Shown here: piece by piece, positions 1-24,395 of the stretch
How positions within the stretch are numbered: position 1 is the stretch's first letter
How the letters are laid out: every line of letters begins with the position of its first letter
Position numbers and translations under genes: made by a program
Virus record (IMG/VR): IMGVR_UViG_3300021964_000490
Location: 1-25,022 of that record
Source of the DNA: a virus
DNA: 25,022 bases
Strand: one strand, 5' to 3'
The notes under the pieces: model-generated
The model's input: the letters and a program-made list of their open reading frames with translations, nothing else
Told to the model about the DNA's origin: nothing
Databases searched by the model: none

Positions 1-77
1 ACCCTTTTACAGGTAATGAAACATCAGACACTGACGCAACATCTGTTACTGCTAAAACAGGTGTACCTACTGAATAA
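1..77 (+). CDS. 3' end of an unidentified upstream gene (partial)
   Basis: An open frame enters from the left edge (codons in phase with base 3) and ends at TAA 75-77. The last residues are Thr/Ser/Ala rich and finish ...VTAKTGVPTE. The stop overlaps the start of the next gene as TAATG, so the two are translationally coupled and in one operon. Its position before a tail hub protein suggests another virion gene, possibly a tail or capsid-completion protein, but 24 residues are too few to identify it. Confidence 0.6.
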   Translation, partial: PFTGNETSDTDATSVTAKTGVPTE

Positions 78-1564
78 TGTCAATCCTCTCTCCTTCAGGA
101 GTAAATACTAAAGGCTTCACCTATACTGACTTCATGGGTGTTGATTCATCTCGTGATAAATCATCATTAGATACAGGTGAGAAACAACATCTTTTAGCTT
201 TAGAAGATGGATTCTGTGACTGGCGTGGAGCCATCGTGCGAAATGCAGGAGTTAAGATACATAAGAATATAGATAAAGCTATTGATCATGTACGTTTCTA
301 TTCAAGAAACAATGTTTGTTTTGTACAACAAGATGGTGGTGGATTAAGTTTAAACTCTGATCAGGATCACTTAGTACAAGAAGCTTTCACTACAGGATCA
401 GTTGTTACTTCTACAGTATTTAACCAAAAAGTATTTATGGTTTCTAAGGATCAATCATCGTACGTATACAATGGTAGTAGTTGGAATAAAGTAGCATCAC
501 TTGATCACCTTAAACCAGCTTACTGCACATCAGTTGGAAGAAGATTAGCTGTTGCAGGTATTACAGGTAAAGCTACAGAGATTCATTTCTCTCGTGTTGA
601 TGATGAAAATTTCTTTACTGAACAAGAGGAAGCAGGAGAAACATCAGTTACTCGTGGTGCATTCTTAGATATAAAAAACTTTATAGGTACAGCAGATGAA
701 ATAAAAGGATTAGGTGTATTAGAAAACAATAAACTATGTATCTTTACAAACGACCAAGTAATAATCTTTAATATTGAGCCTAACTTTGAAAACTGGATAT
801 TAGAAGATAAGGTATCTGTACAAACAGGAACAATATCACATAACTCTATTGTACGTTATGGCACAGACTTAATCTATTGTGGTAGAGATGGTATTCATTC
901 CGTCAAACGATCAATGGAAAATGGTGTAACTATTTTCAGTCAATCACTATCATCTAAAGTTGACATCAAATACAGAGAGTTACTTGCAGCCTGTCCAAAT
1001 TTAGAGAAAGTATCTAGTACCTATGATGCTGATGAGGGTCATATACATTTCTTCTTTCCTAAATCATCACCAAAATTATCAGAGAAATTAACATATGCTA
1101 TTAATCCTGTAGGTGGTGATTCTAAATGGTCAACTGGTGGGCATCTTAACTCACGATGTGGTGACTTTCTAGGTGGTGAACTAATATTAGGTACATCTGG
1201 TGGACTATTTAAAACACAAAACATAGAAGAAAAATCAGACTTTCCTCCTACAATGATAGCTACTACACCTATACTATGGCATGGATCTCTTAACTCTACA
1301 AAGGAAAGTACATCATTCATCTTGCATGCACATGGTTTTGGTGAACTATTGATAGAATGTTTCAATGATAAAGGTCAGCAAATAGATAGTATCAATCTTA
1401 CTATTGATGATACTGGGGACGACAATAACTTCCCTGATGTGCCATTAACTAGACAATATGAAAGACAATTTCTGCATCGCTACAAAGGTGTACAGTTTAA
1501 GTTCACAAGTAGCGGATCAGGAATACTTCGTATTATGGGATTAGCAATTAACGTGAGAGATTAA
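77..1564 (+). CDS. Tail hub/nozzle protein, P22 gp10-like or T7 gp12-like (beta-propeller-like)
   Basis: This 495-aa protein has many short beta-strand repeats with aromatic and Gly turns and no predicted membrane segment. An N-terminal stretch (about 43-60, DWRGAIVRNAGVKI) and the middle part (about 165-300, with FSRVDDENFF, LCIFTNDQVIIFN, LIYCGRDGIHSVKR, FSQSLSSKV) have the rhythm of phage 'packaged DNA stabilisation' or tail-nozzle propellers such as P22 gp10 (about 472 aa) and the T7 gp12 nozzle. Such proteins form the tube tip that holds packaged DNA and carries fibres. The residues after 390 look like a separate beta domain that might dock the fibre. It is coupled to the upstream gene by TAATG. 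The family call is from pattern only; another tail-tube or adaptor protein is possible. Confidence 0.55.
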   Translation: MSILSPSGVNTKGFTYTDFMGVDSSRDKSSLDTGEKQHLLALEDGFCDWRGAIVRNAGVKIHKNIDKAIDHVRFYSRNNVCFVQQDGGGLSLNSDQDHLVQEAFTTGSVVTSTVFNQKVFMVSKDQSSYVYNGSSWNKVASLDHLKPAYCTSVGRRLAVAGITGKATEIHFSRVDDENFFTEQEEAGETSVTRGAFLDIKNFIGTADEIKGLGVLENNKLCIFTNDQVIIFNIEPNFENWILEDKVSVQTGTISHNSIVRYGTDLIYCGRDGIHSVKRSMENGVTIFSQSLSSKVDIKYRELLAACPNLEKVSSTYDADEGHIHFFFPKSSPKLSEKLTYAINPVGGDSKWSTGGHLNSRCGDFLGGELILGTSGGLFKTQNIEEKSDFPPTMIATTPILWHGSLNSTKESTSFILHAHGFGELLIECFNDKGQQIDSINLTIDDTGDDNNFPDVPLTRQYERQFLHRYKGVQFKFTSSGSGILRIMGLAINVRD

Positions 1565-3112: not shown

Positions 3113-4570
3113 ATGTCTTGGTGGAAAAGGTACACTGCAGGAGGTACAGGAAATACCTCTTCTTCTTCTTCTTCTAATCAAGGTGATGATAATAAAGGTA
3201 ACACTTCTTCAGGTAGTTTTGGTAATTCTTATACAGGCAATAAAGGTAATGCAAATGAAGCAGGCGGATCAACAGTAGTTAATAATACAAACGAAAAAAA
3301 AGATAATAAAAAACCTGATACATCTGCATATGAGAACGCAGCTAACTCAGGATATATGGGTGCAGGCTATACTCCACCAGAAAAAAGAAGAGAGACAAGT
3401 GGTTTCAATCCTGATGATAATAAGGGTGGAACAATGACAGAAACAGACAATGATGGCACAGTTACCACAACAACAAATGTTTTAGGTAATAATGAAACGG
3501 ATGCTCAAACTGTAACAATAACTCCTCCACCAGATAATAGTGATGATAATAATACGGAAGGTGAGGATGATGTTTTTTTTAAAATATTTGGTGATGAAAA
3601 TACTACAGGCTTACCAGATGATGCAAAGAAGAATACAACCATGGAGGAGAAGCGTGCATTAATTTTAAAGTTTAAGGCACAGTCAGGTTATGATCAATTA
3701 CCTACATCTCTTAGAAATGAAGCAGACAAAATTATAGCAAGAATACAGGCAGGCGAATATTTTGGATCAGACTTTGCTAACATGCAAGGAACTACTAAAT
3801 CAGGTAATGAGATACTTGCAGCTAATAATAAAAGTGTAGCTGATATAAATCAAAAAGATGCATTAGCTTTATTCACAATAGCAACACAAAATAAAAATGC
3901 AAGCACAGCAAGAGAAGCTGGATTTTCTGCTACAGCAGAAGCTTTATTAAAATCATATGTTGATTCATTATCTCCAGCAGACAGAGCAGCCTTTCAAGAA
4001 GAAGCTAAAAAACTACAAGGTAATTTTAAAGATCCAAGAAATGAATTAGTAAATTTATATACCCAACCAGCATTACTTAGAAGACTAACTGGCTTATCAA
4101 CTTTAAATGAAAATCAATTAGACTATGATAGATTTGTTAGTGAAGCACAAAGAGTAAGAGACAGTAGATCAGATAACAACACGGGACAAGTTAATACATT
4201 CACTAGCTCACAAATGGGAACAGATAATGTAGCAGAAACTAATACCACTGCTGGTTATGGATCATCCATTGACAATCCTCATACTACAAAAGATTTTATA
4301 GATTCAGATGGTGATGGCATAGACGATAGATATCAGAAGGGACCAAACCAACCATATGAGGGACCAGACAGAGATCCAAATAAAACAACAACACCAGATC
4401 CAGATGTAACGACAGGAGCAACTAATCCTAATTCATTTGGTAACACAGCTTTATCAGGAGTCTATGATATGATTCCTGTAAAAAATAGATTTACTGGAAA
4501 GATTGAATACATTCGTAGACCAGTAAGAAGTAACACAGGAACAAGAAACTTTGGGAGTATATATATATGA
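3113..4570 (+). CDS. Disordered Gly/Asn/Ser-rich virion protein with calcium-loop motif
   Basis: The product has 485 residues. Residues 1-150 are low complexity (a run of serines, then Gly/Asn/Lys/Asp/Thr) and likely disordered. About 170-350 is helical and charged, and the C-terminal 50 residues are basic (NRFTGKIEYIRRPVRS). At 397-405 sits DSDGDGIDD, matching the D-x-D-x-D-G calcium loop of thrombospondin type-3, dockerin and EF-hand-like repeats. The motif is present once only. The gene starts 1 bp after the fibre stop without an obvious Shine-Dalgarno sequence, and its stop overlaps the next start as ATGA. The position between fibre and ejection proteins suggests a virion component, such as a fibre-associated, scaffolding-like or internal protein. 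I do not recognise a family. Confidence 0.5.
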   Translation: MSWWKRYTAGGTGNTSSSSSSNQGDDNKGNTSSGSFGNSYTGNKGNANEAGGSTVVNNTNEKKDNKKPDTSAYENAANSGYMGAGYTPPEKRRETSGFNPDDNKGGTMTETDNDGTVTTTTNVLGNNETDAQTVTITPPPDNSDDNNTEGEDDVFFKIFGDENTTGLPDDAKKNTTMEEKRALILKFKAQSGYDQLPTSLRNEADKIIARIQAGEYFGSDFANMQGTTKSGNEILAANNKSVADINQKDALALFTIATQNKNASTAREAGFSATAEALLKSYVDSLSPADRAAFQEEAKKLQGNFKDPRNELVNLYTQPALLRRLTGLSTLNENQLDYDRFVSEAQRVRDSRSDNNTGQVNTFTSSQMGTDNVAETNTTAGYGSSIDNPHTTKDFIDSDGDGIDDRYQKGPNQPYEGPDRDPNKTTTPDPDVTTGATNPNSFGNTALSGVYDMIPVKNRFTGKIEYIRRPVRSNTGTRNFGSIYI

Positions 4571-5339: not shown

Positions 5340-7625
5340 ATGGCAAGTATATTTGATTACTATGGATCTATGCGTAAAGGCATGGAGGATAGAGAAAAAG
5401 AAAAAGAAGCAACAATCATTGCAAGACAAGATGCAATGTATAAACATCTAGAGAGATTCCCTACTCTTGATGATGAATCTATTGATGCCTATGCAAGTCA
5501 ATTTGGTATTGGTGGTAATTTTACAGATGCTGTAAAGAAACAACGTGATCAAAATGTATTTGTACAAACAGAAGAAAATGAACAATTAAAACAACAAACA
5601 GTTTCAGGTCAATTAGGTATTAATGAACAAGAGATAGCAAACAAATCATCAGCTTTAAATTATAAAAAAGCCGAAGCAACTTTTGATAATGATATTGCAT
5701 TATCTAATTTAGATGTTGAATTAAAAAATGTTAATCTAAAACAGTCTCTTAATAATTTAAAAGAATCAGAATTTGATTTTGCGGAAAAAAGAAAAAGTGC
5801 AGCATTAGTATTTAGAAAACTACAATTAGATGTTGAAGGTAAAGCAATAAGTAACGATACAGCTAAAGAAACATTATTGCAAAACAAAGCTTTGTTTCCG
5901 TATGAGTTACAAAAAACAATACAGGATCTTGAAAAAGGTGAGATAAGTATTCAACAAGCATTACAAACATTAACACAAGATGCATTGTTATTTGATCACA
6001 CATTAGAATCTAAAAGACTTACTAATATTAAATCTAAAGAAGATATTCTTAATCAATACAAACAATTTAATTACAATGCTACTCCTGAAGAGGTTGAAGA
6101 TTTTTTAAGAGAACTAGATGTAAATCCTGCGAAAGCTTTAGAAATACTTGCTTATCATAAAACTGTAAAAGACAAAGAGGATCAAGAGATATTCTTAAGC
6201 ACATTAGAAACACAAAAGAAACAATCAAGTACCTTTGGAGATTTATATCAACAAGCATTAATAGCTAATGGATTTAATCATCAAGCAGCAGTAGACTCTG
6301 TAATGAATCAAATAGGTCAAAGTGGTAATCAAGATTTAATAAATGCTGCCGCACAAGAGATGACAAAGTATAATCAGGCACAAGCAGACAAAGCTAAAAA
6401 TGCAGAAGCAATGAATATGATAAGAGAGATTAGTCCAACTACGAGCATGGCTGTATTAAAAAATAATTTAGAAAAACAAAATATTGATCCTGAATTAGCT
6501 AAATCAGTAATAGCTGAACACCAAGCTAGGTTAACAGATGCTTTTATAAAAGATGTTAATTCTAACAGAGGTTTACTAGAAAATTTTCTTCAAGCAGATG
6601 AGACAGAAACTAGAAGAATATTAAGAGAAGTTTATTATTTTGATACAGAAAATATGACTACTCAAGAATTAGATTTTCTAAAAAATATTGTTTATGAAAA
6701 TAAAGTTTATGGTGACATGAAAGATAAGTCAGTGTTGGAAACAGCAGGCAATACTATTACTAACAATACAAAAGATATGACTAACTATATAGTAGCAACT
6801 GCTGCAGATTATTCACAAAGAGATTTACCAATCTTACAAATGATTAATCAAAAATATTATATACGACCAGAAGATATTCTTAGATTAACAGCAGAATTAG
6901 GATTGATAGATGGTGATAGTAGTAAAGCTTTTACTCTATGGGAACAACAACATGGTAAAGATTATCAAACACAAACACAATTTAGAACTACTTTTGTAAA
7001 TGGATTAACAGATTCTAAACAACCTGTTTATCTTGATGAAAATAATAATCCTATTGATACTACATCAGATGATGGGGATACAACAGAACTTGGTTTGCTT
7101 TCTATGAAAGATCATCTTGATGAACAAGTAAGTGAGATTATTAATGGAACAGAAACAGGTATGGATAAAGTAAATAAATTATTGGAGCTACAAGAAAAAT
7201 TAAATAAATACCTAGAAGAAATGAGCGATAATGTAAATCGTAAAGACAATCCAGATCAACAAGTAGAAAATGACTTATTATACCAATTTAAAAATACGTT
7301 AGATAAAATAATTAATAATCAAATTGAAGAATTACAACCTGAAGTAGAAATAGAGAAAGAAGAAAAACAAAACACCTTTAACAACACAGATACATTTACA
7401 TTAATAAATGAAAATATAGATAATATAATTAATGAAACTATAGATGGTAGAGGTTTCTTTACAGGAAATGATCAAAGTAGATTTGAAAAAATATTAAAGA
7501 AAAAGTTACAAGAATATAACACTCAAAATGGAACTAATGTAACTTATGAAGCATTAGTAAACTCACTAAAACAATCAGGTAATTATCCAGAGTTTGATAA
7601 ATTTAGTGGAAATATGAAAAACTAG
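5340..7625 (+). CDS. Internal virion (ejection) protein, T7 gp15-like by size and position
   Basis: The product has 761 residues and is almost entirely predicted alpha-helix. It is rich in Gln, Asn, Lys and Glu, without cysteine-rich motifs, signal peptide or membrane span. Coiled-coil-like heptads are evident at about 70-240 and about 590-660. Size and position match T7 gp15 (747 aa), which forms the periplasmic ejection channel with gp16. The neighbours (a 256-aa gp14-like protein before, a giant gp16-like protein after) support the same role. The start is ATG 5340, 2 bp after the preceding stop. A 64-bp gap separates it from the giant gene. No enzymatic motif is visible. Sequence alone would only justify 'helical phage protein'; the function is inferred from context. 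Confidence 0.55.
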   Translation: MASIFDYYGSMRKGMEDREKEKEATIIARQDAMYKHLERFPTLDDESIDAYASQFGIGGNFTDAVKKQRDQNVFVQTEENEQLKQQTVSGQLGINEQEIANKSSALNYKKAEATFDNDIALSNLDVELKNVNLKQSLNNLKESEFDFAEKRKSAALVFRKLQLDVEGKAISNDTAKETLLQNKALFPYELQKTIQDLEKGEISIQQALQTLTQDALLFDHTLESKRLTNIKSKEDILNQYKQFNYNATPEEVEDFLRELDVNPAKALEILAYHKTVKDKEDQEIFLSTLETQKKQSSTFGDLYQQALIANGFNHQAAVDSVMNQIGQSGNQDLINAAAQEMTKYNQAQADKAKNAEAMNMIREISPTTSMAVLKNNLEKQNIDPELAKSVIAEHQARLTDAFIKDVNSNRGLLENFLQADETETRRILREVYYFDTENMTTQELDFLKNIVYENKVYGDMKDKSVLETAGNTITNNTKDMTNYIVATAADYSQRDLPILQMINQKYYIRPEDILRLTAELGLIDGDSSKAFTLWEQQHGKDYQTQTQFRTTFVNGLTDSKQPVYLDENNNPIDTTSDDGDTTELGLLSMKDHLDEQVSEIINGTETGMDKVNKLLELQEKLNKYLEEMSDNVNRKDNPDQQVENDLLYQFKNTLDKIINNQIEELQPEVEIEKEEKQNTFNNTDTFTLINENIDNIINETIDGRGFFTGNDQSRFEKILKKKLQEYNTQNGTNVTYEALVNSLKQSGNYPEFDKFSGNMKN

Positions 7626-7689: not shown

Positions 7690-10600
7690 GTGGCGACTAA
7701 ACATAATAATCTAGATTTTACATTTGGTAAATCAACAAGTGTAGAGAGAGACTCTCAAAACAAACCATACGAAGTAAACAATAACTCAGGTGATTTTAAT
7801 ATAGATAACCTTGAGCCACACGAGATACTTAAGGATGCTAGATTTCTAGGATTGTTACGTGATCACTATGGTGACTCATACATGGGTTATGATATCGAAG
7901 ATGATGATGATGCAGTCAATGTATTCTTAGCAGATAGATACTTTAAAAACTATAACACTCTAGGTACAGGTTACGAATTAGCCAAGTCTGTTGGTGGATA
8001 CACAGACAACGAAACCACAAAGACATTACAAAAAGCATTTAATAAACTTCCTAACTTTTGGAATGATGAAGATAGAATGATGAGTAGGTTAGGTTTTCTC
8101 GCAGCTTCTGTTATTGCTGATCCTCTTAACCTTATAGGTTTTGGTGCAGGTGCAAAGGTAGGTAAAGCAGCAGCAACACAAGCAATCAAAGAAGGTGGAA
8201 CGAAGAAAGCTGCAAAGATGGCAGCATTGAAAGCTGGTGCAAAAGCAGGTGCATTAAAAGAAGGATTAGCAGGTGCAGGAGTTGGTGCAACATTTAATGC
8301 TATTGAACAAGGTAGAGACATGGCTATTGGTGAGCAAGAAGGTTTTAATAAAACTGAGTTACTTGGTACAACAGCATTGTCTGGTGCGGCAGGAGCAGTC
8401 TTTGGTGCAGGCTTTGGTGGTGCAGGTGGTAGGTTTGCCGTACGTGATGCAAGTAAGTTTGGTAAACAAATACCTAATGCAATAGAAAATATTCAAGCGA
8501 ACAAAGCAAGTGGCTTTGGTGCATTCTCTCAACGTGCAGATGATATTGCTGGTGAAGCAAAACCTATTATAGATAAAGAGATAGATGCAACATCGCAAGC
8601 AGTTGATGATATCAATAAAAACCCAGATGATTTTCCTGATGTTGATGATGCACAGAAATCAGCAATAGATAAAAGACTATTTGCTTTACGATCAATCAAA
8701 CGTATTCCTGAAGCTATTACTAAACTCGAACAACAACTTGCAGATACAGCCGATCCAAATGCACAAATAGAAATACAAAAACAAATACAAGATTATAAAA
8801 ATATACAAGACAAAATAGATAATGCTACAACAGTAGAAGACATTGATGAAGCTATCATTATGCTTACGAAAGAGACACCTGAGCCAGAAGGTGCAACTCC
8901 GAAAGTAGAAACAGATACTACTCCAGAAACAGAAACAGTATCACAAGAAGCTTTTACAGAAGAAGAATTAGAAGACATTTATATTAAGATGGCTAACTCT
9001 TGGATGGAAGAGTCAGGTGCAGTAGATTCTGCAGACTTATCTAAACACTGGAGACAAAAGATTGAAGCCTTAGATGAATCACAAATATCTATAGAGAATA
9101 AACAAAAGCTTTTAAATTATCATGATAAAATTATTGGCAATAATACTGTTGATCCAGAAGATACATTAAAAGAGAGTGTTGATATTGTAGCAGCTAAATC
9201 AGATGCTAAGAAAGGTGGTCGACCTAAGAAGCTTGACTACAGTATGCTTGATGATGAGCAAAGACAGATACTAGAAGACAGAGTACAAAAGAAACTAGCA
9301 TCGATTAAAGCAAGAAATCCAGAAGCTAGTGGTTATTACTTACGACAAATGGAAAGACAATATCGTGAGATGTTACTTGATCAAGCTATTCTAAAAACAA
9401 AAACAGTCAAACAAGTATCATCACGATTAGGATCATTCTCAGGAGATAGTCCAGACAATCCTTTACCTAAAGGTGCAGGTAGAGTTATTGTAACAAAGCC
9501 AGATAACTCAAAGGCATTAGGTAGAGTACAAAGTTTCTTACGTAAAGGTGGTGGTCAAGGATCTTTCCTTGGTCGTAAGCCAGTTAAATCTGAACTTATG
9601 TTTGATGAGTTACAAGCTCGTGCAGAAGCAAAAGGTATTAGAGGTGCAATTAGATTTAAGTCTATATCTAAAAAGACAGTTAAGACGAATGATGGCGAAG
9701 AATTAAAATTAGGAGAAGTAGGATACTACTTGCCATCAGCAGGCGAAGGTAAGAGAGGTAAAGTATATAAAGACTTACGTGCAGTAAAAGTTGCTAATGA
9801 AGGATTAGATCCTATTAATGTTAATGATGCACCTAAAACAAAAGTAGATACATCACAAGATGATGTAAATGCAAAAACAATATCTGTATTAGAAAAGAAG
9901 ATTGCTGCAGGAAAAGGTACTGATGCAGATCAAGCAACACTAGCTAGACTACAAACAAAAGCTACTGATGATGCAGCTGAAAGACAATTCTTAGATATAG
10001 TACAAAAAGCAGATGACGATACACAAAAAATATTAAGTGAAATTATAGAGAAAAAAGGTAAACCAGAAGTAAAAGCTCAGACTCCTGATAAACCTAAAGC
10101 AGATGTTAAATCTGATTCTAATCCAATAGCAATACCTGATGGTATGCTTATTGCTATTAGAAATGCGGAAGGTAAGATACGTATACAGACACCAGCACAA
10201 AAACAATTTGGTGAAGGTGTTGATAGATTACTTGGTAAACAAAGTAGAGAAAACTGGGAAGTAGGTTTTGTACCTGAAGGTACAAAAGGATCATCTGCAT
10301 TAGATGCATTCATGCCATACAATGTAAAAGATGAAGTAGTTAAATTAGATATACAATCTGGATTTAATACGTTGTCAGGTAAACCTATGCCTGTTAAATC
10401 TTTTTATAATCATCAAGAATTATCAGAGATAGCTGTAGATTTATCTGATTTAAAAGGACCAATAAGTGAAGAAGCTCAAGGTGTTAACTTGATTGATTGG
10501 TTTTTATCTAAAGATAAAACTGGAACAAGTGCTTACACTTTTGGAATGACTGGTGATTTAAACAATGCGGCAATGGCATATCGTATTGTAGATAAATTAG

Positions 10601-13600
10601 AAGAATCAGATTGGAGATTCTGGGGTGAGAATCAAGATTGGTTAGGAGATACTAAAGCAGCTTTATATGCAAGACTTCCTGAGAGAAGAGTAAATCCAAA
10701 TACAAGAGAAGAATCAATAGTACAAATAGAAAACATATTACAAGGTCAATCAAAAGAAGACATACAAATAGTAAGAAACATACTTAACAATCTTAATGTA
10801 CAATTCTTACCACACTGGAAAACATGGCAATCTGTAGGGTCATCTTCTCCTAATGCTTCACAAGTATTAGGTGGTACAATACCACCAAACTCAGCTAACC
10901 CTAGTTCATTACAAGGTAATATAGCTATAAGTCAAAGAGACTTTGATCCTAACATGCAAACATCTGATGTAATGAAAGCAGAAGATGCAGCACAAGGAAC
11001 ATTAAACTCAACGAAACAATGGGAAAAGATACCAACTAATCATGCACCATCATTAACTGTAGTGCATGAGTTAGCTCACTGGTCATACTTTAATGTTCTA
11101 TCTCCTGAAGACAAAGCTATCTTCCATAAGTCAGTATCTAAATATGTAAAGAATGGTGAAGTAGATCAACAAGCATTAGCAGGCAAAGTATATGATGCTG
11201 ATAGTTACTTTGGTATGAATGCATTAGAAACACCACAAGAATTTTTTGCACATCAATTTACCCTATGGGTAAATGGTAGACAGAATATTGTAGGTAGTGA
11301 TTCATTCTGGTCAAAAGTATATAGAAAAGTACAATCAGTATTTAATAGATTTAATGATAATAAAGCTATTGATCCTGACTTAGTTCCTATTTTTAATAAA
11401 TTATTACCAGAAGAAGAATTAACAAAAGTAAAACCAACAGTAAAAACTAGACCACAAGCAATAGGAATACAAAGTCACTTATATGAAATATCATTTACAA
11501 AAGATGAGTTACGTAATGCTGTTGTTAGATCAGGTAATCCTGCAGACATAATATATAAATTAGAAGATACAGTATTCTCTTTAGAGAATGTCTTATCATC
11601 TGATCAGTATCCACCTGAGTTTACAAATCAAATAGCTTTCCTTCGTGATCAAATAGATGAACAACTAACAAGTGGTAAAAACTCTTTGCAAATGCAAAAT
11701 GGTTTACAAAGTGTTAACGTAGAAAACCCTGAGAAGTTAGTTAACTTTGCTAATGATGTTGTTAATCAATTAGAAGATGTAAGAGTAAACATAGAAGATA
11801 CATTTGGGAAAGTAAATGAAACACCAAATGCTGTACCTTCTTTACCTATCAACCCAGTCAAAGCAAAAGAAGTACCACAAACTGTGGAACAACAGATAGC
11901 AAAACTACAACAACAAATAGATATACTAAAAAATAACAATGCAGAGAAAACAAAAGTAAATAGAAAAGCAAAAGCTGTTGTTGAGAATAAAAATATTAAA
12001 TTTAAAAAACCATTGGAACAAGTTGATCCAACAGATGATACAACTGTATCACCACGTAAGCTAAGTCTAGCAGAGTTATATGATGATTTTGCTAAAGTAG
12101 ATTTAGAAACACCACAAGGATATTCCTTAGCTAATGAAATAGATAGACGTTTACGTACAGAGTTACCTAAACCAGATGACTCTATCATTGTACCTAGAGA
12201 CATTATGCAAATGCGTAAACAAGAAATGATACAAGAGATGCATGCAGCATTACAACAAGGTGCAAAAGGTAAAGAAAGATTTAATCAACTATATAAAGAA
12301 ATATATAGAAGAGAAATAAAACGTAGACAGAAAAATGGCATTGTACCTGCATCAAGTGTACGTATGACTAATGCTATAAGACGTGAGTCTGATGAGTTTT
12401 CAGGAATGATGGATGTTGATTTTATACCAGCAACAACATCAGATACTATTAGACAAATTTTATTAAAGTCTACTCATCGTAACAAAGCAGTACAACCAAT
12501 ACTACGTACAGTAATGTATAGAATGTTAAACTTACATGGTGCAAACATTAAACATACTGGTAACTCATTAGCTAAAGATCCAATAGAGATTAAGTTAAAA
12601 AATCCTAACACATCAGCAACTGATGATGACTTTAATAATATGATTGAAGGTATGATGGTTGATACCAACAGTGAAACCTTTAAGTTTTTACGTAGTCAAG
12701 CAAGAAGACTAGCAGTAGAAATGGCTAAAGATAATGGTGATCCAGAGAAAGTAACTAAAGGTGTATTAGATTTAATTTTCTCTACTAACTATGTTAATGA
12801 CTTTGAAAGAGAATCCATAAGAAAAATATTCCCGTATACATATGTTAACAGAAATGAATTACCTCCAGTTGATTTAGATATATCAGCAGAGGATTGGTTT
12901 ATAGAATCATTCACAGATGTATTGGCAGGTAAAAAATCTTTAGATGAATTATTTATCTTTGATAATCCTGAGTTAACTCCTGATATTGATAGAGTTAAAA
13001 AACTTACAGGTGAATTAACTGAAGCAGCAGCTTACTTTATTAATGACTTAAGTAGAAATAAGAAAGCTAAACAAGCCTTCCCTTCTCTAGCTGTCTATGG
13101 TGATGTTTTCCAAAGCCAATACAAACACTTACCAGTATCAGAAGTATATGGATTAAATACATCTGTACCTTCTTTTGCTGCAAAAAGATTAGCATCAGAA
13201 GCTATAGAGAAAGCAAATAATAATCCAGTAAGAATGGCTAACATCAACGAGTATACTCGTAACAATCCTGTCGTCTTCTATCATGGGAGTATGGATGGTA
13301 ATGCATTTAGTAAAAAAACAAATCCTTCTGTAACAATACAACAATCAGGTGTTGGTGTTTATGGACCAGCATTCTATGTAACAGGTAACCCAATGGTTGC
13401 AGGATACTATGCAGCACCTTCATCATTAACAGCTAAGTCTTTTGATATGTTTAAAAAACAAGCAAAGACAGAAGAAGCTAAAGAATTAATTGATGGATAT
13501 TTCATGAATAGACAAACAATAGATGAAGAAGATGCAGCAATAAGAAAACTAGAGTCAAGACAAACTGGTAAAAACACTGAGAATGTTGTTGAAGATGATT

Positions 13601-16600
13601 TGAATGTTACACAATTAATGAATGTAGATGAAGAGATTTCAAGAAGAAAAGATTACATGAGATCATTAATCATGTTTACTAATAATCAAGGTGAAGAATT
13701 AAAAAAAGTACACAACATTGTAGTTGAGCCAAGTGTTACACCAATGTTTATACGTGCAGATAATTCATTTAACATCAATGAAAAATATAGATTAGACTCT
13801 GATCCAGAGATTGGTATGATACTTGACAATGCTGTATCTAAAAATCTTACATCAGATGCAGAGATAGCAAGAGTATTTAATGATCCTACTGAAGAGATAG
13901 ATGGTGATGAATTATATCATCGTATAGCAATGATATTAGATGATAACATTGATGCAAACTATGATGACTTCACAGCTTACGCACAAGGTAAAGCTAGATT
14001 AAACTCTATCTTAGTAGAATTAGGTTATGATTCTATAAGACACTACACAGGTGGACAACACAAGAATACTGGTAAAGGATCAGGTGGTGTTGCTATAGCA
14101 TTATTAAAAGATGGTCACGTTAAACACGTTAACTCTCCTGAGTTTGATATAGCTAGTGATAGATTATACGATACACAAGTTGGTAAAGGTAGTATCAATG
14201 GTGCAATACTACAACATGGTAGTGATCCAGCAGCAGTATTTGCTACACGTAAAGCTGATGCAATAGTACCACAACTAGAAGATATGGGTATCTCCCCTTC
14301 TGTTGCAGGATTATTTAAAAAGATTAACAATAATGTTGTTGATGAGAAATCATTAAAGACTGCAAAGAAATTTTCTTTTGGTGTACAGATACGTAACAAC
14401 TCAAGACGTGCAAGAGACTTCTCTAATGCTAACTGGTTAGCTGATTGGGTATCACCTCTTGATAACACTGGTATCTATGAAAGACACAATGCTTTAGCTG
14501 CAGATAAATACATTCCTATTAGACAATTACTTAACAAGTTACCTGATGCTTATGGTTGGGCAAGAAACTATGCAAACAACTTTAAGATTATTGGTAAAAC
14601 TCCACAACCTAAATCACATACAAAGATACTACGTGCCTTACGATATGAGTTAGATACAAGTTTACCACAAGTAAAAGCATTAACTCCACAAGAGATGAAT
14701 GTTGCACAATCTATACGTAAACTATTCCAAGAAGAGTATGAGTTTCTTGTCGATAGTGGTGTAGAAATGGGTAAGATTAAAAACTATGTACCTCGTGTCT
14801 ATGATGCAGAAGCTGTTAGACGTAACATGGATGGCTTTACAGATAAGATATCATCCTATTTACTACGTGAAGCAAGAGAAGATAAACGTACACTAACTAA
14901 ACCTATAGCAATGGAGAAAGCAAAAGACATTGCCAATAGAATTATTGATGAAGATGGCACATATCTACCACAGTTTGCAGAAAAGAAATCACCACACTCT
15001 GACAACATTGATTTCCAACGTATGTTAAAATTAAATGGTAAAGAATTAGAAGGTTTAGAAGATTTCTTAATCAATGATTTAGATAGTATACTATCTAAGT
15101 ATGTAGATGGATCAACAAGACGTGGTTTATTCTCACAACAATTTGGTTACAATAACTTTGGCTTCGATGACTACATGCGTGTAGGTACAGAAGGTGTTGC
15201 TGGTGTTGCTGACATGTTGATGTCAGATAAACAGGTAAAAATATCCTTACGTTATCCTACTAACGATGGTGGTATGGATACACAAACAACAACAATACCT
15301 AAATTGTTTGCACCATTTAAAGATAAGCCTGCACAAGCAAGAAAGTTTGCAAACGACATAGTAGCAATGGCAGAAGCTGGTGACTACATGAAAGCTAAAG
15401 CTATGTTACTACGATTAAAACCACTAGCTGGTGAGAATTGGCATGTACGTACAGAAGCAATCATCAATGGTTTAAGAGACTTTGGATCAGATGGTAATAG
15501 TATATCACTTAAGGAACAAAAATTCTTAATGAATTACTTTAGAGTATTACAACGTAAACCAATGGAAGGCGGAGCCTTCCATGAAAGTTTAACAACAGCA
15601 TCTAAAGTATTACGTAATATTAATGCAGTGACGATGTTAGGTTTTACAACCTTAACATCTATTCCAGATACATTCTTACCTCTTATTAGAGGTGGTAGTA
15701 TGGGTAGCTTTGTTAAAGCTTGGAAGAAATACTCTACAGATAAACACTACAGAGAGATGTTAGAACGTACAGGATTAAACCTAGAGAATGTTATCCATGA
15801 TAAGATGGCTGGTATGTATGGTTACTCAGGTGGACGTGCAACAAACAACTTCTTCCATGTCATTGGATTATCACAATGGACAGGCATGCAACGTAAGATG
15901 GCAGGAGCAGTAGGCTTTGAAACATTCCGTACCATGAATAGAATAGCTGCTGATTTATATAGAAGTAATGGTACACAAACGAATAAGTACAGACGAGCAG
16001 CACGTATTCTAAAAGAGTTTGGCTTAGAAGATTATTCTAAACCTGATGCTAAAGGTAAGTTTAAATCAATGACAGAATTAGGCGAAGTAATGTCTTCTCC
16101 TGATGCTGATAGATTACGAGCAGCGATGGTTAAGTTTGGTAACGAAACAATCTTTGCACCTAACCCTAATGATTTACCTCTATGGACACAAACACCTGTC
16201 GGTGCATTAATGTTTCAACTTAAATCATTCCCACTCATGATGGGTAGATTAAGTAGAAAGGTACTAAGTGAAGCAAGACAAGGTAATGTATCACCATTAT
16301 TATACATGGCTACTTTCGGTGCAGGTATAGGTGGTGTTGGATCATTAGCAGTAAAAGACTTAGCACAATTTAGAGGTGGCGATGATCAGAAATCTAGTCA
16401 ATTTAGAGATAGAAAATTCTCTAAAGATGTATTGGAACAATTTGGTAATGAAAGAAGTGAAGTTATTGAAGGATGGCAAAGAGATATAAATCAATTTGCA
16501 GATAAAAATCCTGACATGATGAAGATTGCTTTATCTATAGGATATGATCCTACTCAACATGGTACAGTAGATAGTTTTTTAGGATGGTATATAGAAGGTT

Positions 16601-16983
16601 TGATGCAACTTGGTGGATTAGGTATGGTAGCTGAGTTACTATATAACTCTGCAGCACAAGCAGACAACGGAGCATTTGGTATGTCTCGTACACTATCTTA
16701 TGTGCTTGGACCATCATTCGACACAGTAGCAAACTTTGGTTTCAATACATTGGCTGCTGGTCAAGAAGGTTTAGAAGCTGCAGGTAGTAATCAACCTGTT
16801 GGCAACTCTGCAAGACGTACACTTACAAGACAACTGTTATCTCGTGTACCTTTATTTGGTGGTAATAGGAAGTTTAGAGAAGGTGGTACTGATGTATTAG
16901 CAGGTACACCTAAAGATACTAAAGTAAATAACTGGGGTGCATCAGGATGGCAAGCTGGATGGAAAGGTACTAGCTGGAACTAG
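7690..16983 (+). CDS. Giant gp16-like ejection protein with metallopeptidase, ART-like and PLxRFG domains
   Basis: This 3097-aa protein starts at GTG. Domains in order: an N-terminal phage-specific region (1-120); hydrophobic Gly/Ala segments at 134-155 and 224-247, suited to membrane insertion; acidic/helical linkers; a zincin signature H1126-E-L-A-H1130 with E1184 in EFFAHQF as likely third zinc ligand; a coiled coil near 1398-1420; and an ADP-ribosyltransferase-like region at about 1858-2160. That region shows VFYHGS with H1865, the strand FYVTGNP 1895-1901, YY 1906-1907 and LGYDSIR 2111-2117. The third ART catalytic residue is unclear and there is a large insert at about 1910-2095. Then comes an NYVPRVY segment (2365-2371). 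An LPD38/PLxRFG-type end follows: hydrophobic 2643-2666, FPLMMGRLSRK 2847-2857, a Gly-rich span 2870-2889 and FRGGDD near 2894-2899. T7 gp16 is 1318 aa, so this protein is more than twice that size. It is probably packaged and injected, acting on cell envelope or host proteins. Domain calls are by motif. Confidence 0.75.
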   Translation: MATKHNNLDFTFGKSTSVERDSQNKPYEVNNNSGDFNIDNLEPHEILKDARFLGLLRDHYGDSYMGYDIEDDDDAVNVFLADRYFKNYNTLGTGYELAKSVGGYTDNETTKTLQKAFNKLPNFWNDEDRMMSRLGFLAASVIADPLNLIGFGAGAKVGKAAATQAIKEGGTKKAAKMAALKAGAKAGALKEGLAGAGVGATFNAIEQGRDMAIGEQEGFNKTELLGTTALSGAAGAVFGAGFGGAGGRFAVRDASKFGKQIPNAIENIQANKASGFGAFSQRADDIAGEAKPIIDKEIDATSQAVDDINKNPDDFPDVDDAQKSAIDKRLFALRSIKRIPEAITKLEQQLADTADPNAQIEIQKQIQDYKNIQDKIDNATTVEDIDEAIIMLTKETPEPEGATPKVETDTTPETETVSQEAFTEEELEDIYIKMANSWMEESGAVDSADLSKHWRQKIEALDESQISIENKQKLLNYHDKIIGNNTVDPEDTLKESVDIVAAKSDAKKGGRPKKLDYSMLDDEQRQILEDRVQKKLASIKARNPEASGYYLRQMERQYREMLLDQAILKTKTVKQVSSRLGSFSGDSPDNPLPKGAGRVIVTKPDNSKALGRVQSFLRKGGGQGSFLGRKPVKSELMFDELQARAEAKGIRGAIRFKSISKKTVKTNDGEELKLGEVGYYLPSAGEGKRGKVYKDLRAVKVANEGLDPINVNDAPKTKVDTSQDDVNAKTISVLEKKIAAGKGTDADQATLARLQTKATDDAAERQFLDIVQKADDDTQKILSEIIEKKGKPEVKAQTPDKPKADVKSDSNPIAIPDGMLIAIRNAEGKIRIQTPAQKQFGEGVDRLLGKQSRENWEVGFVPEGTKGSSALDAFMPYNVKDEVVKLDIQSGFNTLSGKPMPVKSFYNHQELSEIAVDLSDLKGPISEEAQGVNLIDWFLSKDKTGTSAYTFGMTGDLNNAAMAYRIVDKLEESDWRFWGENQDWLGDTKAALYARLPERRVNPNTREESIVQIENILQGQSKEDIQIVRNILNNLNVQFLPHWKTWQSVGSSSPNASQVLGGTIPPNSANPSSLQGNIAISQRDFDPNMQTSDVMKAEDAAQGTLNSTKQWEKIPTNHAPSLTVVHELAHWSYFNVLSPEDKAIFHKSVSKYVKNGEVDQQALAGKVYDADSYFGMNALETPQEFFAHQFTLWVNGRQNIVGSDSFWSKVYRKVQSVFNRFNDNKAIDPDLVPIFNKLLPEEELTKVKPTVKTRPQAIGIQSHLYEISFTKDELRNAVVRSGNPADIIYKLEDTVFSLENVLSSDQYPPEFTNQIAFLRDQIDEQLTSGKNSLQMQNGLQSVNVENPEKLVNFANDVVNQLEDVRVNIEDTFGKVNETPNAVPSLPINPVKAKEVPQTVEQQIAKLQQQIDILKNNNAEKTKVNRKAKAVVENKNIKFKKPLEQVDPTDDTTVSPRKLSLAELYDDFAKVDLETPQGYSLANEIDRRLRTELPKPDDSIIVPRDIMQMRKQEMIQEMHAALQQGAKGKERFNQLYKEIYRREIKRRQKNGIVPASSVRMTNAIRRESDEFSGMMDVDFIPATTSDTIRQILLKSTHRNKAVQPILRTVMYRMLNLHGANIKHTGNSLAKDPIEIKLKNPNTSATDDDFNNMIEGMMVDTNSETFKFLRSQARRLAVEMAKDNGDPEKVTKGVLDLIFSTNYVNDFERESIRKIFPYTYVNRNELPPVDLDISAEDWFIESFTDVLAGKKSLDELFIFDNPELTPDIDRVKKLTGELTEAAAYFINDLSRNKKAKQAFPSLAVYGDVFQSQYKHLPVSEVYGLNTSVPSFAAKRLASEAIEKANNNPVRMANINEYTRNNPVVFYHGSMDGNAFSKKTNPSVTIQQSGVGVYGPAFYVTGNPMVAGYYAAPSSLTAKSFDMFKKQAKTEEAKELIDGYFMNRQTIDEEDAAIRKLESRQTGKNTENVVEDDLNVTQLMNVDEEISRRKDYMRSLIMFTNNQGEELKKVHNIVVEPSVTPMFIRADNSFNINEKYRLDSDPEIGMILDNAVSKNLTSDAEIARVFNDPTEEIDGDELYHRIAMILDDNIDANYDDFTAYAQGKARLNSILVELGYDSIRHYTGGQHKNTGKGSGGVAIALLKDGHVKHVNSPEFDIASDRLYDTQVGKGSINGAILQHGSDPAAVFATRKADAIVPQLEDMGISPSVAGLFKKINNNVVDEKSLKTAKKFSFGVQIRNNSRRARDFSNANWLADWVSPLDNTGIYERHNALAADKYIPIRQLLNKLPDAYGWARNYANNFKIIGKTPQPKSHTKILRALRYELDTSLPQVKALTPQEMNVAQSIRKLFQEEYEFLVDSGVEMGKIKNYVPRVYDAEAVRRNMDGFTDKISSYLLREAREDKRTLTKPIAMEKAKDIANRIIDEDGTYLPQFAEKKSPHSDNIDFQRMLKLNGKELEGLEDFLINDLDSILSKYVDGSTRRGLFSQQFGYNNFGFDDYMRVGTEGVAGVADMLMSDKQVKISLRYPTNDGGMDTQTTTIPKLFAPFKDKPAQARKFANDIVAMAEAGDYMKAKAMLLRLKPLAGENWHVRTEAIINGLRDFGSDGNSISLKEQKFLMNYFRVLQRKPMEGGAFHESLTTASKVLRNINAVTMLGFTTLTSIPDTFLPLIRGGSMGSFVKAWKKYSTDKHYREMLERTGLNLENVIHDKMAGMYGYSGGRATNNFFHVIGLSQWTGMQRKMAGAVGFETFRTMNRIAADLYRSNGTQTNKYRRAARILKEFGLEDYSKPDAKGKFKSMTELGEVMSSPDADRLRAAMVKFGNETIFAPNPNDLPLWTQTPVGALMFQLKSFPLMMGRLSRKVLSEARQGNVSPLLYMATFGAGIGGVGSLAVKDLAQFRGGDDQKSSQFRDRKFSKDVLEQFGNERSEVIEGWQRDINQFADKNPDMMKIALSIGYDPTQHGTVDSFLGWYIEGLMQLGGLGMVAELLYNSAAQADNGAFGMSRTLSYVLGPSFDTVANFGFNTLAAGQEGLEAAGSNQPVGNSARRTLTRQLLSRVPLFGGNRKFREGGTDVLAGTPKDTKVNNWGASGWQAGWKGTSWN

Positions 16984-17239
16984 GTGGCTTCGGAGGAACG
17001 AAGACATCAGGATTCTTTTCTCCCTGTTTAATCTCTTTACGTATTTCTTTTTTAATATCTTTTTGTATTTCTTTACGTATCTCTTCTTTCTCTTCTTCGG
17101 CTATAACTCTATCAAGATAACGTAGCTTTGCTTTATCATCCATTATTTTCCATTCAGCATCTTCTATCTTTGCTTGAGTCCACTTGTTACTTTCCATTTC
17201 ATTAAGTTGTTTCTTTGTATAACCATCATGAATCGACAT
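16970..17239 (-). CDS. Small charged coiled-coil phage protein, last gene of the leftward operon
   Basis: This 89-aa protein is very rich in Lys and Glu. A heptad-like KEEIRKEIQKDIKKEIRKEI run at about 51-70 predicts a single long helix, and the C-terminus is Pro/Ser rich. The start has a strong GGAGG six bases before ATG and overlaps the end of the upstream gene by 14 bp. Its last codons also overlap the end of the convergent giant late gene by 14 bp. I do not recognise a family. It is probably a genuine early gene because of the strong ribosome site and operon position. Confidence 0.5.
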   Translation of the reverse strand: MSIHDGYTKKQLNEMESNKWTQAKIEDAEWKIMDDKAKLRYLDRVIAEEEKEEIRKEIQKDIKKEIRKEIKQGEKNPDVFVPPKPPSSS

Positions 17240-17507
17240 TCATCACCTCCGCAGTACATGCAGCATAGCCAGCAATATCTATCCAAGAGTCTATGTGACG
17301 TGGATCCTCTTGTAATCTAGCTATTTTCATCCATAACATCATCATTCCATATTGATCAGGTGTAATCTCATGACCTAAGATTAACTCCCAACCTTTGATA
17401 ATTCTTTGAAAATTTATTTTTGGATCACCATATCTGAGATTACGATCGCCTTGTATAATCTCTTTAGCTTTATCTAATACATCTTCTTTCTTCACCTTAA
17501 CCTTCAT
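17226..17507 (-). CDS. DUF6378-type phage protein
   Basis: This 93-aa protein has the DUF6378 signature in order: EDVLDKAKEIIQGDRNLRYGDP (about 8-29, with GDR and YGDP), NFQRIIKGW, EITPDQYGMMMLWMKIARL and DSWIDIAGYAACTAE near the end. The length matches the family's usual single domain. Members are widespread in phages as short helical proteins of unknown biochemical role. A relation to all-alpha NTP-pyrophosphatase (MazG-like) folds is possible but is my speculation. A GGAG site lies 7 bases before the start. The start overlaps the preceding stop as ATGA, and its own end overlaps the next gene. Confidence 0.75.
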   Translation of the reverse strand: MKVKVKKEDVLDKAKEIIQGDRNLRYGDPKINFQRIIKGWELILGHEITPDQYGMMMLWMKIARLQEDPRHIDSWIDIAGYAACTAEVMNVDS

Positions 17508-17988: not shown

Positions 17989-18826
17989 AAGATCCTCCTG
18001 ATGTTAAAGGTTGGTATAATTTGTATTCGTCACAGAGTTTTACAGCATCACTATCATGGAATGTGCAGTGCCAAGCCTTGTCTCCCTTATCGGTTGGCTT
18101 TGCATGCTGACAGTTGTAACAAGCTGGAGAAGGATTAACACCTTCCCAACATGTGCTTTTTTTAAAGCACATTTTACAAGCAAAATAAGCAGGATCAGAA
18201 GATATTTTCCTTCCTTTACCTTCTAACACTACATTTATTCTCCTTAGTAAATCGGCATACTCAAACTCATCATAGGTTACTACCTCTGATAAATATTCGC
18301 TTGAGTTTTTATTGTATGATACGAGGCAGGCTTTATGTATGCCACTTAAACCCATTAGTAATTGCATCTGTGCAAAGTATTTATAGTCAGATACTTTAAC
18401 TCCAACCTTCTTACATTTCTTCCACCTTGCATCATTCATACTTTTGATTTCAAGTATGTGCTTTTCATCTTCTATAATTATTACGCCATCACCATTACCC
18501 ATGACATGATTACCAAACATACTGTATCTATGTTGTTTACCTGTCTCTTCATCAATCTCACTAACTTCAAAGCCTGCTAGTTTTAAATCATTAACAACAT
18601 CATCTTCAATACGATGACCATCTCTAAAAATTCTTTTTACTTTTGGTATAGGATCTGACTCTGGAAAACCTCTTAGACAATAGGATAAATAAGCATTACA
18701 AGAATGACCTACACCTGATGCACCTATATATCTTCTTGGATCTTCTCTCTCTTTATCTTCATATGCTTTATCTATTAACTCTTCTATTGAATAATTTTTA
18801 TTAGATAAATAATCGTCTATGTTCAT
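17981..18826 (-). CDS. Cas4/RecB-like PD-(D/E)XK exonuclease with cysteine cluster
   Basis: The product has 281 residues. The PD-(D/E)XK core is visible: RYIGASGVGHSC (32-43), DGHRIEDDV (69-77), D113 in GNGDGVI, E126-I-K128 in HILEIKSM, then YFAQMQLLM (150-158) with Q153/Q155. Cas4- and AddB-type nucleases bind a 4Fe-4S cluster through one early and three late cysteines; here C43 with C217, C220 and C226 would fit. A further group (C236, C239, C254, C265) resembles an added zinc-binding tail. It probably resects DNA ends for the Sak4/SSB recombination genes in the same operon, like the exonuclease of lambda Red. AAGGAT lies 6 bases before ATG, and ATGA couples it to the upstream gene. Metal content and directionality are inference. 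Confidence 0.75.
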   Translation of the reverse strand: MNIDDYLSNKNYSIEELIDKAYEDKEREDPRRYIGASGVGHSCNAYLSYCLRGFPESDPIPKVKRIFRDGHRIEDDVVNDLKLAGFEVSEIDEETGKQHRYSMFGNHVMGNGDGVIIIEDEKHILEIKSMNDARWKKCKKVGVKVSDYKYFAQMQLLMGLSGIHKACLVSYNKNSSEYLSEVVTYDEFEYADLLRRINVVLEGKGRKISSDPAYFACKMCFKKSTCWEGVNPSPACYNCQHAKPTDKGDKAWHCTFHDSDAVKLCDEYKLYQPLTSGGSYE

Positions 18827-19809: not shown

Positions 19810-20573
19810 TATGCAGCCTCCTTTTTATTTGGTTTTGTCATCAGTTTAAAAATTTCAGTGATATCTGCAGTACGCATCACTGCTTCTATCTTCCTGTTTG
19901 GATCTCGGACTTTACCTTTCCATCCTCTTACTTCATCACAAACAAGAAACCTTTCAACTTTAGGATCAGTACGATCACCATCAGTTACACGCACACCACA
20001 CAATACATTGTCAAATATTGCTGGTAGTTGTTTCTGTATGGATGCACCTTTAATCATCGCCCAGTAATCTGTTTCACCATTGTCGTTTGTTTCTTCTTTT
20101 GCTAATGCTGTAACAACAACATTGTAAGGTAAGTCTCTTATCCACTTAACACTACCCAACATCAGGCGTTGATTGTCTCCCCACATAGCCAGTTTGTTTC
20201 TGCTATCTCGGTACTCAACTTCTAAATGTTGTATTAGTCTGTCAGATAATTCTGTTAAACTATCCAACATAATCCATTTGTATCCTGCATTCCTAAAGTC
20301 TTCTGTGTCCATAAGTTTACAGATACCTCTGAATGAATAGATATTTTTTGATGGATTATTCTCACCATCCCATGATGTGAATGGTAAATAGTCTATGTCT
20401 GCATTCATAACAGAACGTAAACCACTCTCTCCACTTATGATAAAACCTTTACCATAATGTTTCTTCATATTGATTGCTTGGGTAGTCTTACCCCAACCAT
20501 GATGTCCGTATAACAAAGTCTTTTGGACACCAGAATTTTCTACTGCTGATGTACTCATAGGTTTAAACGTCAT
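19809..20573 (-). CDS. Sak4-like RecA-type ATPase (single-strand annealing/recombination)
   Basis: The product has 254 residues. Walker A is GHHGWGKTT (23-31) and Walker B is WIMLDSL (100-106, D104). FIISGESGLRSV (44-55) and VVVTALAKEE (152-161) match the core strands of AAA_24/Sak4 phage ATPases. The length fits the family, which is smaller than cellular RecA and lacks its C-terminal domain. Sak4 proteins promote annealing of SSB-coated DNA, and here SSB is the next gene, coupled by TAATG. AAGGAG lies 5 bases before ATG; the start overlaps the previous gene by 11 bp. It is probably the phage's recombinase for repair and concatemer formation. Confidence 0.85.
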   Translation of the reverse strand: MTFKPMSTSAVENSGVQKTLLYGHHGWGKTTQAINMKKHYGKGFIISGESGLRSVMNADIDYLPFTSWDGENNPSKNIYSFRGICKLMDTEDFRNAGYKWIMLDSLTELSDRLIQHLEVEYRDSRNKLAMWGDNQRLMLGSVKWIRDLPYNVVVTALAKEETNDNGETDYWAMIKGASIQKQLPAIFDNVLCGVRVTDGDRTDPKVERFLVCDEVRGWKGKVRDPNRKIEAVMRTADITEIFKLMTKPNKKEAA

Positions 20574-21009
20574 TCAAACTCCTTACCTCTATTGAAGGTT
20601 TAATATGTTTAATTGTTAAAGCATCTCTCAGATCATTCTGTTCTTTGGTTGTAAGGTTTTTAAAATGCTTACGATGTATGCTTAGATTTTCACTAATGAA
20701 GTGAGGTAAGGTATTACCTGTATATAAAGATTTTAATTTACTAGAATCCCATGACCAGTTTTCTCTACGTTTTAATGTAACCTCAAATTTATTAGTTGTT
20801 TTTGTATGTGTACCTGCTGACGTAGGTAACACCTTAGTTATTTCATCTCTTACAGTATCTCTTTTGAACGTGAGCTTATCAATCTGAGCTTGTAAATTCT
20901 CATACTGTCCACATAATGTGTCAAAACTGTGCTGCTCTGGAGTAGAAATATTGGCATTGTTTATCTTGCCATCGTCTTCGACAAAGACGTTAAATGGATT
21001 GTCTTCCAT
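20563..21009 (-). CDS. First gene of the leftward operon, unknown 148-aa protein
   Basis: An acidic N-terminus (MEDNPFNVFVEDD) is followed by a coiled-coil segment at about 30-60 (QYENLQAQIDKLTFKRDTVRDEI). The rest is a mixed domain with KFEVTLKRRENWSWD and FKNLTTKEQNDLRDALT. I do not recognise the family. A perfect AAGGAG five bases before ATG and its place first behind the leftward promoter mean it should be among the earliest and most strongly made proteins. Position before Sak4 suggests a recombination or host-nuclease-inhibition role in the manner of Gam, but only context supports this. Confidence 0.6.
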   Translation of the reverse strand: MEDNPFNVFVEDDGKINNANISTPEQHSFDTLCGQYENLQAQIDKLTFKRDTVRDEITKVLPTSAGTHTKTTNKFEVTLKRRENWSWDSSKLKSLYTGNTLPHFISENLSIHRKHFKNLTTKEQNDLRDALTIKHIKPSIEVRSLNDV

Positions 21010-23664: not shown

Positions 23665-23976
23665 ATGCCAAAGCGAGTACCTGTGACTTCACAGGATATA
23701 GAATGGCTTCGTCAAAATGCCGAGAATTTACCTGTCAAAGATATAGCAAAACGTTTCAACTGCTGCATCGACACAGCCAAAAGAATTTTACACCGAAATG
23801 ACATCATACATTTTGATGGAGCAAAATATGAGAAGAGACGGGATCACGATTTAAAGATGTGGAGTCGACCCTGTATGGGTTGTAAGTCTACTGATCCTCG
23901 ACCAAAGAATCAATACTTCTGCGACACCTGTCGTGAGAATCTTGATATGGAAAACTCTCATGATGGGTGGGTATAG
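23665..23976 (+). CDS. HTH and zinc-ribbon DNA-binding protein
   Basis: A 103-aa protein. Residues about 20-50 (NLPVKDIAKRFNCCIDTAKRILHRNDI) are a homeodomain-like/HTH_23-type helix-turn-helix. Residues about 70-93 hold CMGC and CDTC, two CxxC knuckles 16 residues apart, that should bind zinc. Such small HTH/zinc-ribbon proteins are often phage transcription regulators. It leads the rightward cluster of nucleases and its stop overlaps the next start (TAGTG). An in-frame stop at 23647-23649 excludes an upstream extension. The ribosome site is weak (AGAGA at 23656-23660), unlike the good GGGAG at 23622-23626, which serves a different frame. The repeats just upstream may be its own binding sites. 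Confidence 0.65.
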   Translation: MPKRVPVTSQDIEWLRQNAENLPVKDIAKRFNCCIDTAKRILHRNDIIHFDGAKYEKRRDHDLKMWSRPCMGCKSTDPRPKNQYFCDTCRENLDMENSHDGWV

Positions 23977-24395
23977 TGGCTAGATATACTTACTTTCAAT
24001 CAGGTGATCCTTTTTCTGAGTGGCATCGCAAACAATCTGGCATTCGACAGATAGATATAGATGGGTGTGAAGTATGCGAATACTGCTATTCTCCCCTCGC
24101 TTTATCAGAGACAGCGTATGACAAGGGTCAAATCTTTAAAGCCTTCTGGACGACTCGTTTATTGGCATTAAAGGCTAATATCCCAGCCTATCTTATTCTG
24201 TACAAGGTTGATGAGGCTACAGAGAATCGGGATGTCGTTTCTCTACGTATCAAACGCATCGCACCAGAAGTATCTAAAGACTGGATCACCATTAAGCCTG
24301 AAGATTTTCGCAAAGAATTACTCCGCATACAATCACAACATAGAAAGGAATGTAAGAAACTCCATGAGTGGAAAGACTGCCAAGAGGAAAGGTAG
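23976..24395 (+). CDS. Phage protein with possible restriction-endonuclease-like fold
   Basis: I take GTG 23976 (TAGTG overlap with the previous stop; product begins with M-ARYTYFQSGDPFSEWHRKQ), though GTG 23967 is in frame. The motif block QIDIDGCEVCEYCYSPLALSETAYD is followed by WTTRLLALKANIPAYLILYKV. It resembles a widespread phage family with conserved D-I-D, Cys and E-T-A positions, compatible with a PD-(D/E)XK-like fold. CxxC inside the motif may bind metal. The C-terminal 25 residues are basic. The next gene starts inside its end (32-bp overlap). Nuclease activity is inference from motif layout and from the neighbours (resolvase, HNH). Confidence 0.5.
   Translation: MARYTYFQSGDPFSEWHRKQSGIRQIDIDGCEVCEYCYSPLALSETAYDKGQIFKAFWTTRLLALKANIPAYLILYKVDEATENRDVVSLRIKRIAPEVSKDWITIKPEDFRKELLRIQSQHRKECKKLHEWKDCQEER

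Follow-up and report, generated by a model that had tools for sequence, protein, structure and literature searches.

Ejection proteins are usually viewed as a mere conduit. T7 gp16, encoded by the last ejection-protein gene of its phage, has two membrane regions, and the part between them has been placed in the cytoplasm (PMC8954989). Polyvalent phage proteins combine unrelated enzyme domains, including zincin and ADP-ribosyltransferase (ART) domains, and are predicted to enter the cell with the DNA (PMC5512222). N4 virion RNA polymerase (vRNAP) gp50 and RPP1 vRNAP are ejected giants of ∼3500 aa that combine an HExxH domain with a large C-terminal part, and RPP1 vRNAP also contains an ART (PMC12633501, PMC5512222). 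In the cyanophage A4 pre-ejectosome, an ART fold lies inside an ejectosome protein (9k3a_B). Roseobacter phage CRP-810 belongs to a family with a single isolate and 251 uncultured genomes (PMC11288001). That paper names gp36 internal virion protein D, and its consulted sections describe no enzyme domains; gp35 and gp34 are annotated in the sequence record only as hypothetical.

The giant ORF, its phage and its family

The window, i.e., the whole 25,022-base stretch of viral DNA analyzed here, opens with a series of genes that ends in a giant ORF.

77..1564, + strand: homologue of CRP-810 gp42 (stabilization protein), 45% identity
1570..3111, + strand: homologue of CRP-810 gp41 (tail fiber), 49% identity
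4567..5337, + strand: gp14-position protein, 256 aa, matches CRP-810 gp38
5340..7625, + strand: gp15-position protein, 761 aa, family profile matches CRP-810 gp37 (99.5%)
7690..16983, + strand: giant ORF, putative ejection protein, 3097 aa, GTG start

The giant ORF is the last among the ejection-protein genes of the window. Eleven neighbouring genes match those of CRP-810 with their order kept, and the shared set includes tail, PD-(D/E)XK nuclease, AAA ATPase, Prim-Pol and Holliday resolvase genes. The window is therefore part of the genome of a marine phage of the CRP-810 type. Profile comparison detected no homology of the gp14-position protein to T7 gp14 or of the gp15-position protein to T7 gp15. 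Elsewhere, the window contains a Ser/Asn/Gly/Asp-rich ORF of 485 aa (3113–4570) that is matchless in Pfam, PHROGs and CRP-810, an opposite-strand cluster with a DUF6378 protein (17226–17507, − strand, E 6e-29) and a DUF7173 protein (20563–21009, − strand, E 1e-7), and a weak MSV199-like match (23967–24395, E 0.001, below cut-off).

The giant ORF is uninterrupted, with zero internal stops. The initial annotation had put its product at more than twice the size of T7 gp16, and the ratio is indeed 2.35 (3097 vs. 1318 aa). Its parts are as follows.

7810..8469, + strand: N domain, membrane part, aa ∼41–260, homologous to pelagiphage internal virion protein D
8089..8145, + strand: hydrophobic segment, aa 134–152, Kyte-Doolittle 1.52
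8359..8415, + strand: hydrophobic segment, aa 224–242, Kyte-Doolittle 1.37
8470..10809, + strand: variable linker, aa 261–1040, the fastest-evolving part (dN/dS 0.28–0.29)
10897..11589, + strand: zincin 1, predicted metallopeptidase domain, aa ∼1070–1300, from motif conservation and a weak model
11065..11079, + strand: HELAH motif, aa 1126–1130
11239..11241, + strand: predicted third zinc ligand E1184 (PQEFFA), invariant
12436..13098, + strand: zincin 2, degenerate, aa ∼1583–1803, HExxH lost
13252..14184, + strand: ART-fold domain (modelled), aa ∼1855–2165
13282..13284, + strand: H1865, ART strand 1, in 40 of 40 members
13375..13377, + strand: Y1896, ART strand 2, in 40 of 40 members
14029..14031, + strand: D2114, GYD motif, in 39 of 40 members
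14377..16980, + strand: C domain, cytoplasmic-hub-like part, aa 2230–3097
16297..16353, + strand: hydrophobic segment, aa 2870–2888, Kyte-Doolittle 1.56

When compared with two relatives (L001 and L002), the giant ORF had a dN/dS of 0.20–0.24 overall and of ≤0.20 in the zincin 1, zincin 2, ART and C regions. We show that the 3097-aa ORF is a real gene under purifying selection across all of its domains.

Over its whole length the giant ORF is colinear with CRP-810 gp36, gp35 and gp34 taken together, which lie in the same neighbourhood (OR671924; PMC11288001). The two loci differ in that the CRP-810 record has three ORFs and the window one, and in that the zincin 2 HExxH is intact in CRP-810 and lost in the window. 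Natural fission was considered for the three-ORF state. The gp35/gp34 break, however, coincides with a 31-bp tandem duplication (L012, OR671924.1, ∼18240–18340) that is absent from L020, so that natural fission is less likely at this point than a frameshift or an assembly artefact; the gp36/gp35 break stays outside this explanation.

Relatives were gathered by scans of viral contigs and genome contigs, and then with family profiles. The N, zincin 1 and C domains occurred together in 39 distinct single ORFs (2970–4059 aa), in 29 of which all five domains were detectable, in the order N, zincin 1, zincin 2, ART fold and C. One member (L100, 3278 aa) is found in the genome of the cultured Poseidonocella sp. 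HB161398. In L059, L071 and L099 an upstream ORF of its own encodes the N domain; in L099 this ORF directly precedes the one with the zincin, ART and C domains. Relatives without a first-pass ART or zincin 2 match carried no Pfam effector family above cut-off, and in several of them the ART was recovered by more sensitive profiles.

Homology to ejection proteins and membrane segments

The N profile matched internal virion protein D of pelagiphages HTVC019P and HTVC142P in hhalign comparisons (99.8%, E ∼1e-28). The C domain matched TL-2011b gp38 and phiA008 gp66 (99%, profile comparison), and TL-2011b gp38 matched the T7 gp16 family profile (97%). When compared with the T7 gp16 profile directly, the C domain reached only 56% (E 1e-4), although colinear over 513 columns. 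Reversed controls of the N and C comparisons yielded zero matches. The C domain also matched phrog_6958 (virion structural) in two of the three relatives scanned singly, and searches of the PDB with the N and C profiles gave chance-level matches or none.

By hydrophobicity only, 20 of 24 members had membrane-type segments in the N part, 18 had them in the C part and 4 in the middle. By analogy with the T7 gp16 topology, these flanking segments suggest that the enzyme block should face the host cytoplasm. The giant protein is like T7 gp16 in being encoded by the last ejection-protein gene and in having two membrane regions and a probably related C part. T7 gp16 differs in its N-terminal transglycosylase and in lacking a zincin or ART block. 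The N and C homologies, the flanking segments and the gene position support the initial annotation, which had called the product a gp16-type ejection protein. We consider it probable that the giant protein is of this type (internal virion protein D), and infer that it is located in the virion.

Putative peptidase and ART-fold regions of the middle block

A HELAH...E zincin had been noted in the initial annotation. Its motif is invariant: H1126, E1127, H1130 and E1184 did not vary among 14 full-length members, HExxH was kept in 47 of the 47 domains covering it, and none of 49 domains lacked the third-ligand Glu. At the composition of the giant protein, the chance expectation of an HExxH is 0.025. 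The AlphaFold2 model of zincin 1 is poor (pLDDT 53). It orders a helix, three strands, the HExxH helix and the Glu helix, as described for polyvalent peptidases by Iyer et al. (2017; PMC5512222). With this weak model, the VIA-align rows covering residues 1–224 were exclusively zincins, of which the catalytic region of anthrax lethal factor scored Z 6.3–6.4 and PPEP-3 Z 5.8, where a Z of ∼6 is middling. Foldseek returned zero significant matches and no zincin, the model being too weak for more. Pro-Pro endopeptidases were the best PDB matches of the zincin 1 profile, below significance, and MPTase-PolyVal (PF18818) matched 0 of 10 records, with a control search positive in three genomes. A weak in-register match to N4 vRNAP C1 was also observed. 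Zincin 1 is likely a peptidase; the zincin fold is probable, but itself not proven. As predicted from its sequence, zincin 1 probably processes its own polypeptide or host proteins, and both self-processing and attack on host proteins have been considered for such peptidases (Iyer et al., 2017; PMC5512222).

A second zincin copy had been overlooked. Comparison of the zincin 1 and zincin 2 profiles gave 86% (E 5e-6), and a profile search of the PDB with zincin 2 was uninformative. Of 43 members, 21 retain the HExxH of zincin 2 and 22 have lost it. On the C-domain tree its state changed five times, at least three of these changes being forced by well-supported branches, and the window sits in a clade with the loss. 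Zincin 2 is nevertheless still constrained (dN/dS <0.09 vs. L001 and L002), which suggests a structural role for the degenerate domain.

The ART-like domain of the initial annotation was recovered. PF18760 (ART-PolyVal) matched aa 1859–2000 with E 5.6e-4 and 21.1 bits, under the curated cut-off of 31.2 bits, and 6 of 14 family members with a best E of 2.6e-6. A model of zincin 2 plus ART had a mean pLDDT of 70, with values mostly of 70–93 in the ART core strands. In VIA comparisons the ART model matched residues 1418–1600 of 9k3a_B with Z 10.8 over 174 residues, and tankyrases and PARP1 with Z 6.1–6.6. A PARP-like ART fold in the giant protein is thus supported by both the Pfam match and the structural comparisons. 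In the ART-PolyVal active site, H-Y-D, strand 5 supplies the Asp (Iyer et al., 2017; PMC5512222). The third residue was assigned here by sequence alignment: 14 of 40 members are acidic at the position in strand 5 that aligns with it, and the window has Val. Because this acid is missing, ART catalysis in the window phage is doubtful. With zincin 2 lacking its HExxH as well, only zincin 1 looks catalytically complete.

The annotated LPD38/PLxRFG region was not found: LPD38 (PF18857) gave no match in 14 members or in ten records, in the latter of which the controls were also silent, and NCBIfam gave zero PLxRFG matches in the 14 members.

The giant ORF encodes at least two unrelated enzymatic domains (zincin motif and ART fold, activity predicted) in one polypeptide, as polyvalent proteins do. 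In contrast to polyvalent proteins, the carrier is of the gp16 type, no LPD38 was found in the window family, and the zincin and ART domains fall below or outside the curated PF18818 and PF18760. The N4 and RPP1 vRNAPs differ in having an RNA polymerase: the N4-type virion RNA polymerase domain was absent from 14 members in Pfam and NCBIfam scans. Both vRNAPs gave zero matches to the N, ART and C profiles, and their zincin similarity was weak (32%). ORF27 of Anabaena phage A-4L (L098, 20116–25269, − strand), annotated as a tail protein, carries the ART-like motifs YHGT and GSGTY in the region corresponding to the ART match, and is likely the chain in 9k3a. This protein differs from the giant ORF in its length (1717 aa), in lacking an HExxH and in having no detectable N or C homology.

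A probable peptidase within a proposed ejection machine

With the zincin motif, the ART fold and the N and C domains in the same ORF, the initial annotation was supported in placing the enzyme domains and the ejection parts in one polypeptide. This combination is less unprecedented than it had implied, because the N4 and RPP1 vRNAPs are ejected giants with a zincin, and that of RPP1 also with an ART. What is new here is a polyvalent-type enzyme block inside a probable gp16-type ejection protein; these vRNAPs are precedents for it, and the A4 pre-ejectosome is one for the ART.

We favor as probable an inner-membrane-spanning gp16-type ejection protein that has gained in size through an enzyme block lying between the two membrane regions. 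The giant protein would reside in the head, then unfold and exit via the tail, and its N and C hydrophobic segments would insert into the inner membrane. The middle block (zincin 1, degenerate zincin 2 and ART fold) would be presented to the cytoplasm beside the DNA-translocating hub, where zincin 1 would most likely cut its own polypeptide, freeing the block, or else cut host proteins. The ART fold may act on a host target, by modification or by binding, its activity in the window phage being doubtful. A predicted peptidase and a PARP-like domain built into the middle of an ejection-type protein suggest that the injection machine itself carries enzymes into the cell.

The cytoplasmic placement that this topology would give the block also suits a host-directed effector, in which zincin and ART would, at an early stage of infection, act against host defence or reprogramme proteins of the host, as predicted for polyvalent proteins as a class (PMC5512222). 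We regard this as unlikely: neither a target nor a connection to any defence system turned up, the window ART is incomplete at strand 5, and a single peptidase that is constant in all members fits self-processing equally. The incomplete ART would, on the other hand, fit a purely structural protein, whose zincin and ART folds would serve to build the internal core and perform no catalysis of consequence. The repeated loss of the zincin 2 HExxH from a domain still under selection, and the location of the closest ART-fold match in an ordered pre-ejectosome, point the same way. However, all four catalytic residues of zincin 1 are kept in every member, and the ART His and Tyr in 40 of 40; we regard the purely structural reading as unlikely.

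A soluble multidomain protein outside the virion, whose location after the tail genes is incidental, would be compatible with the undetected T7 gp14 and gp15 homology of the two upstream proteins. It is highly improbable, given that the N and C domains are homologous to internal virion proteins and that the phrog_6958 match, the ART match to a pre-ejectosome and the gene position all argue against it.

Returning to the enlarged ejection protein, we put forward only tentatively that, throughout the phage family, the DNA channel itself includes a peptidase and an ART, anchored in the membrane and facing the cytoplasm. If so, genome entry would be coupled to modification of the host, or to a self-cleavage that dismantles the channel. 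A complete peptidase site is kept in the conduit protein of every member examined, and the adjacent enzyme domains decay or vary. Since CRP-810 is cultured, with FZCC0198 as its host, the role of a putative ejected peptidase, self-processing vs. host attack, becomes testable.

Aeromonas phage phiA008 gp66 (L013) has a HELGH at aa ∼1079, before the homologous C domain, and the arrangement of a zincin followed by C seems, at the sequence level, to reach beyond the CRP-810 family.
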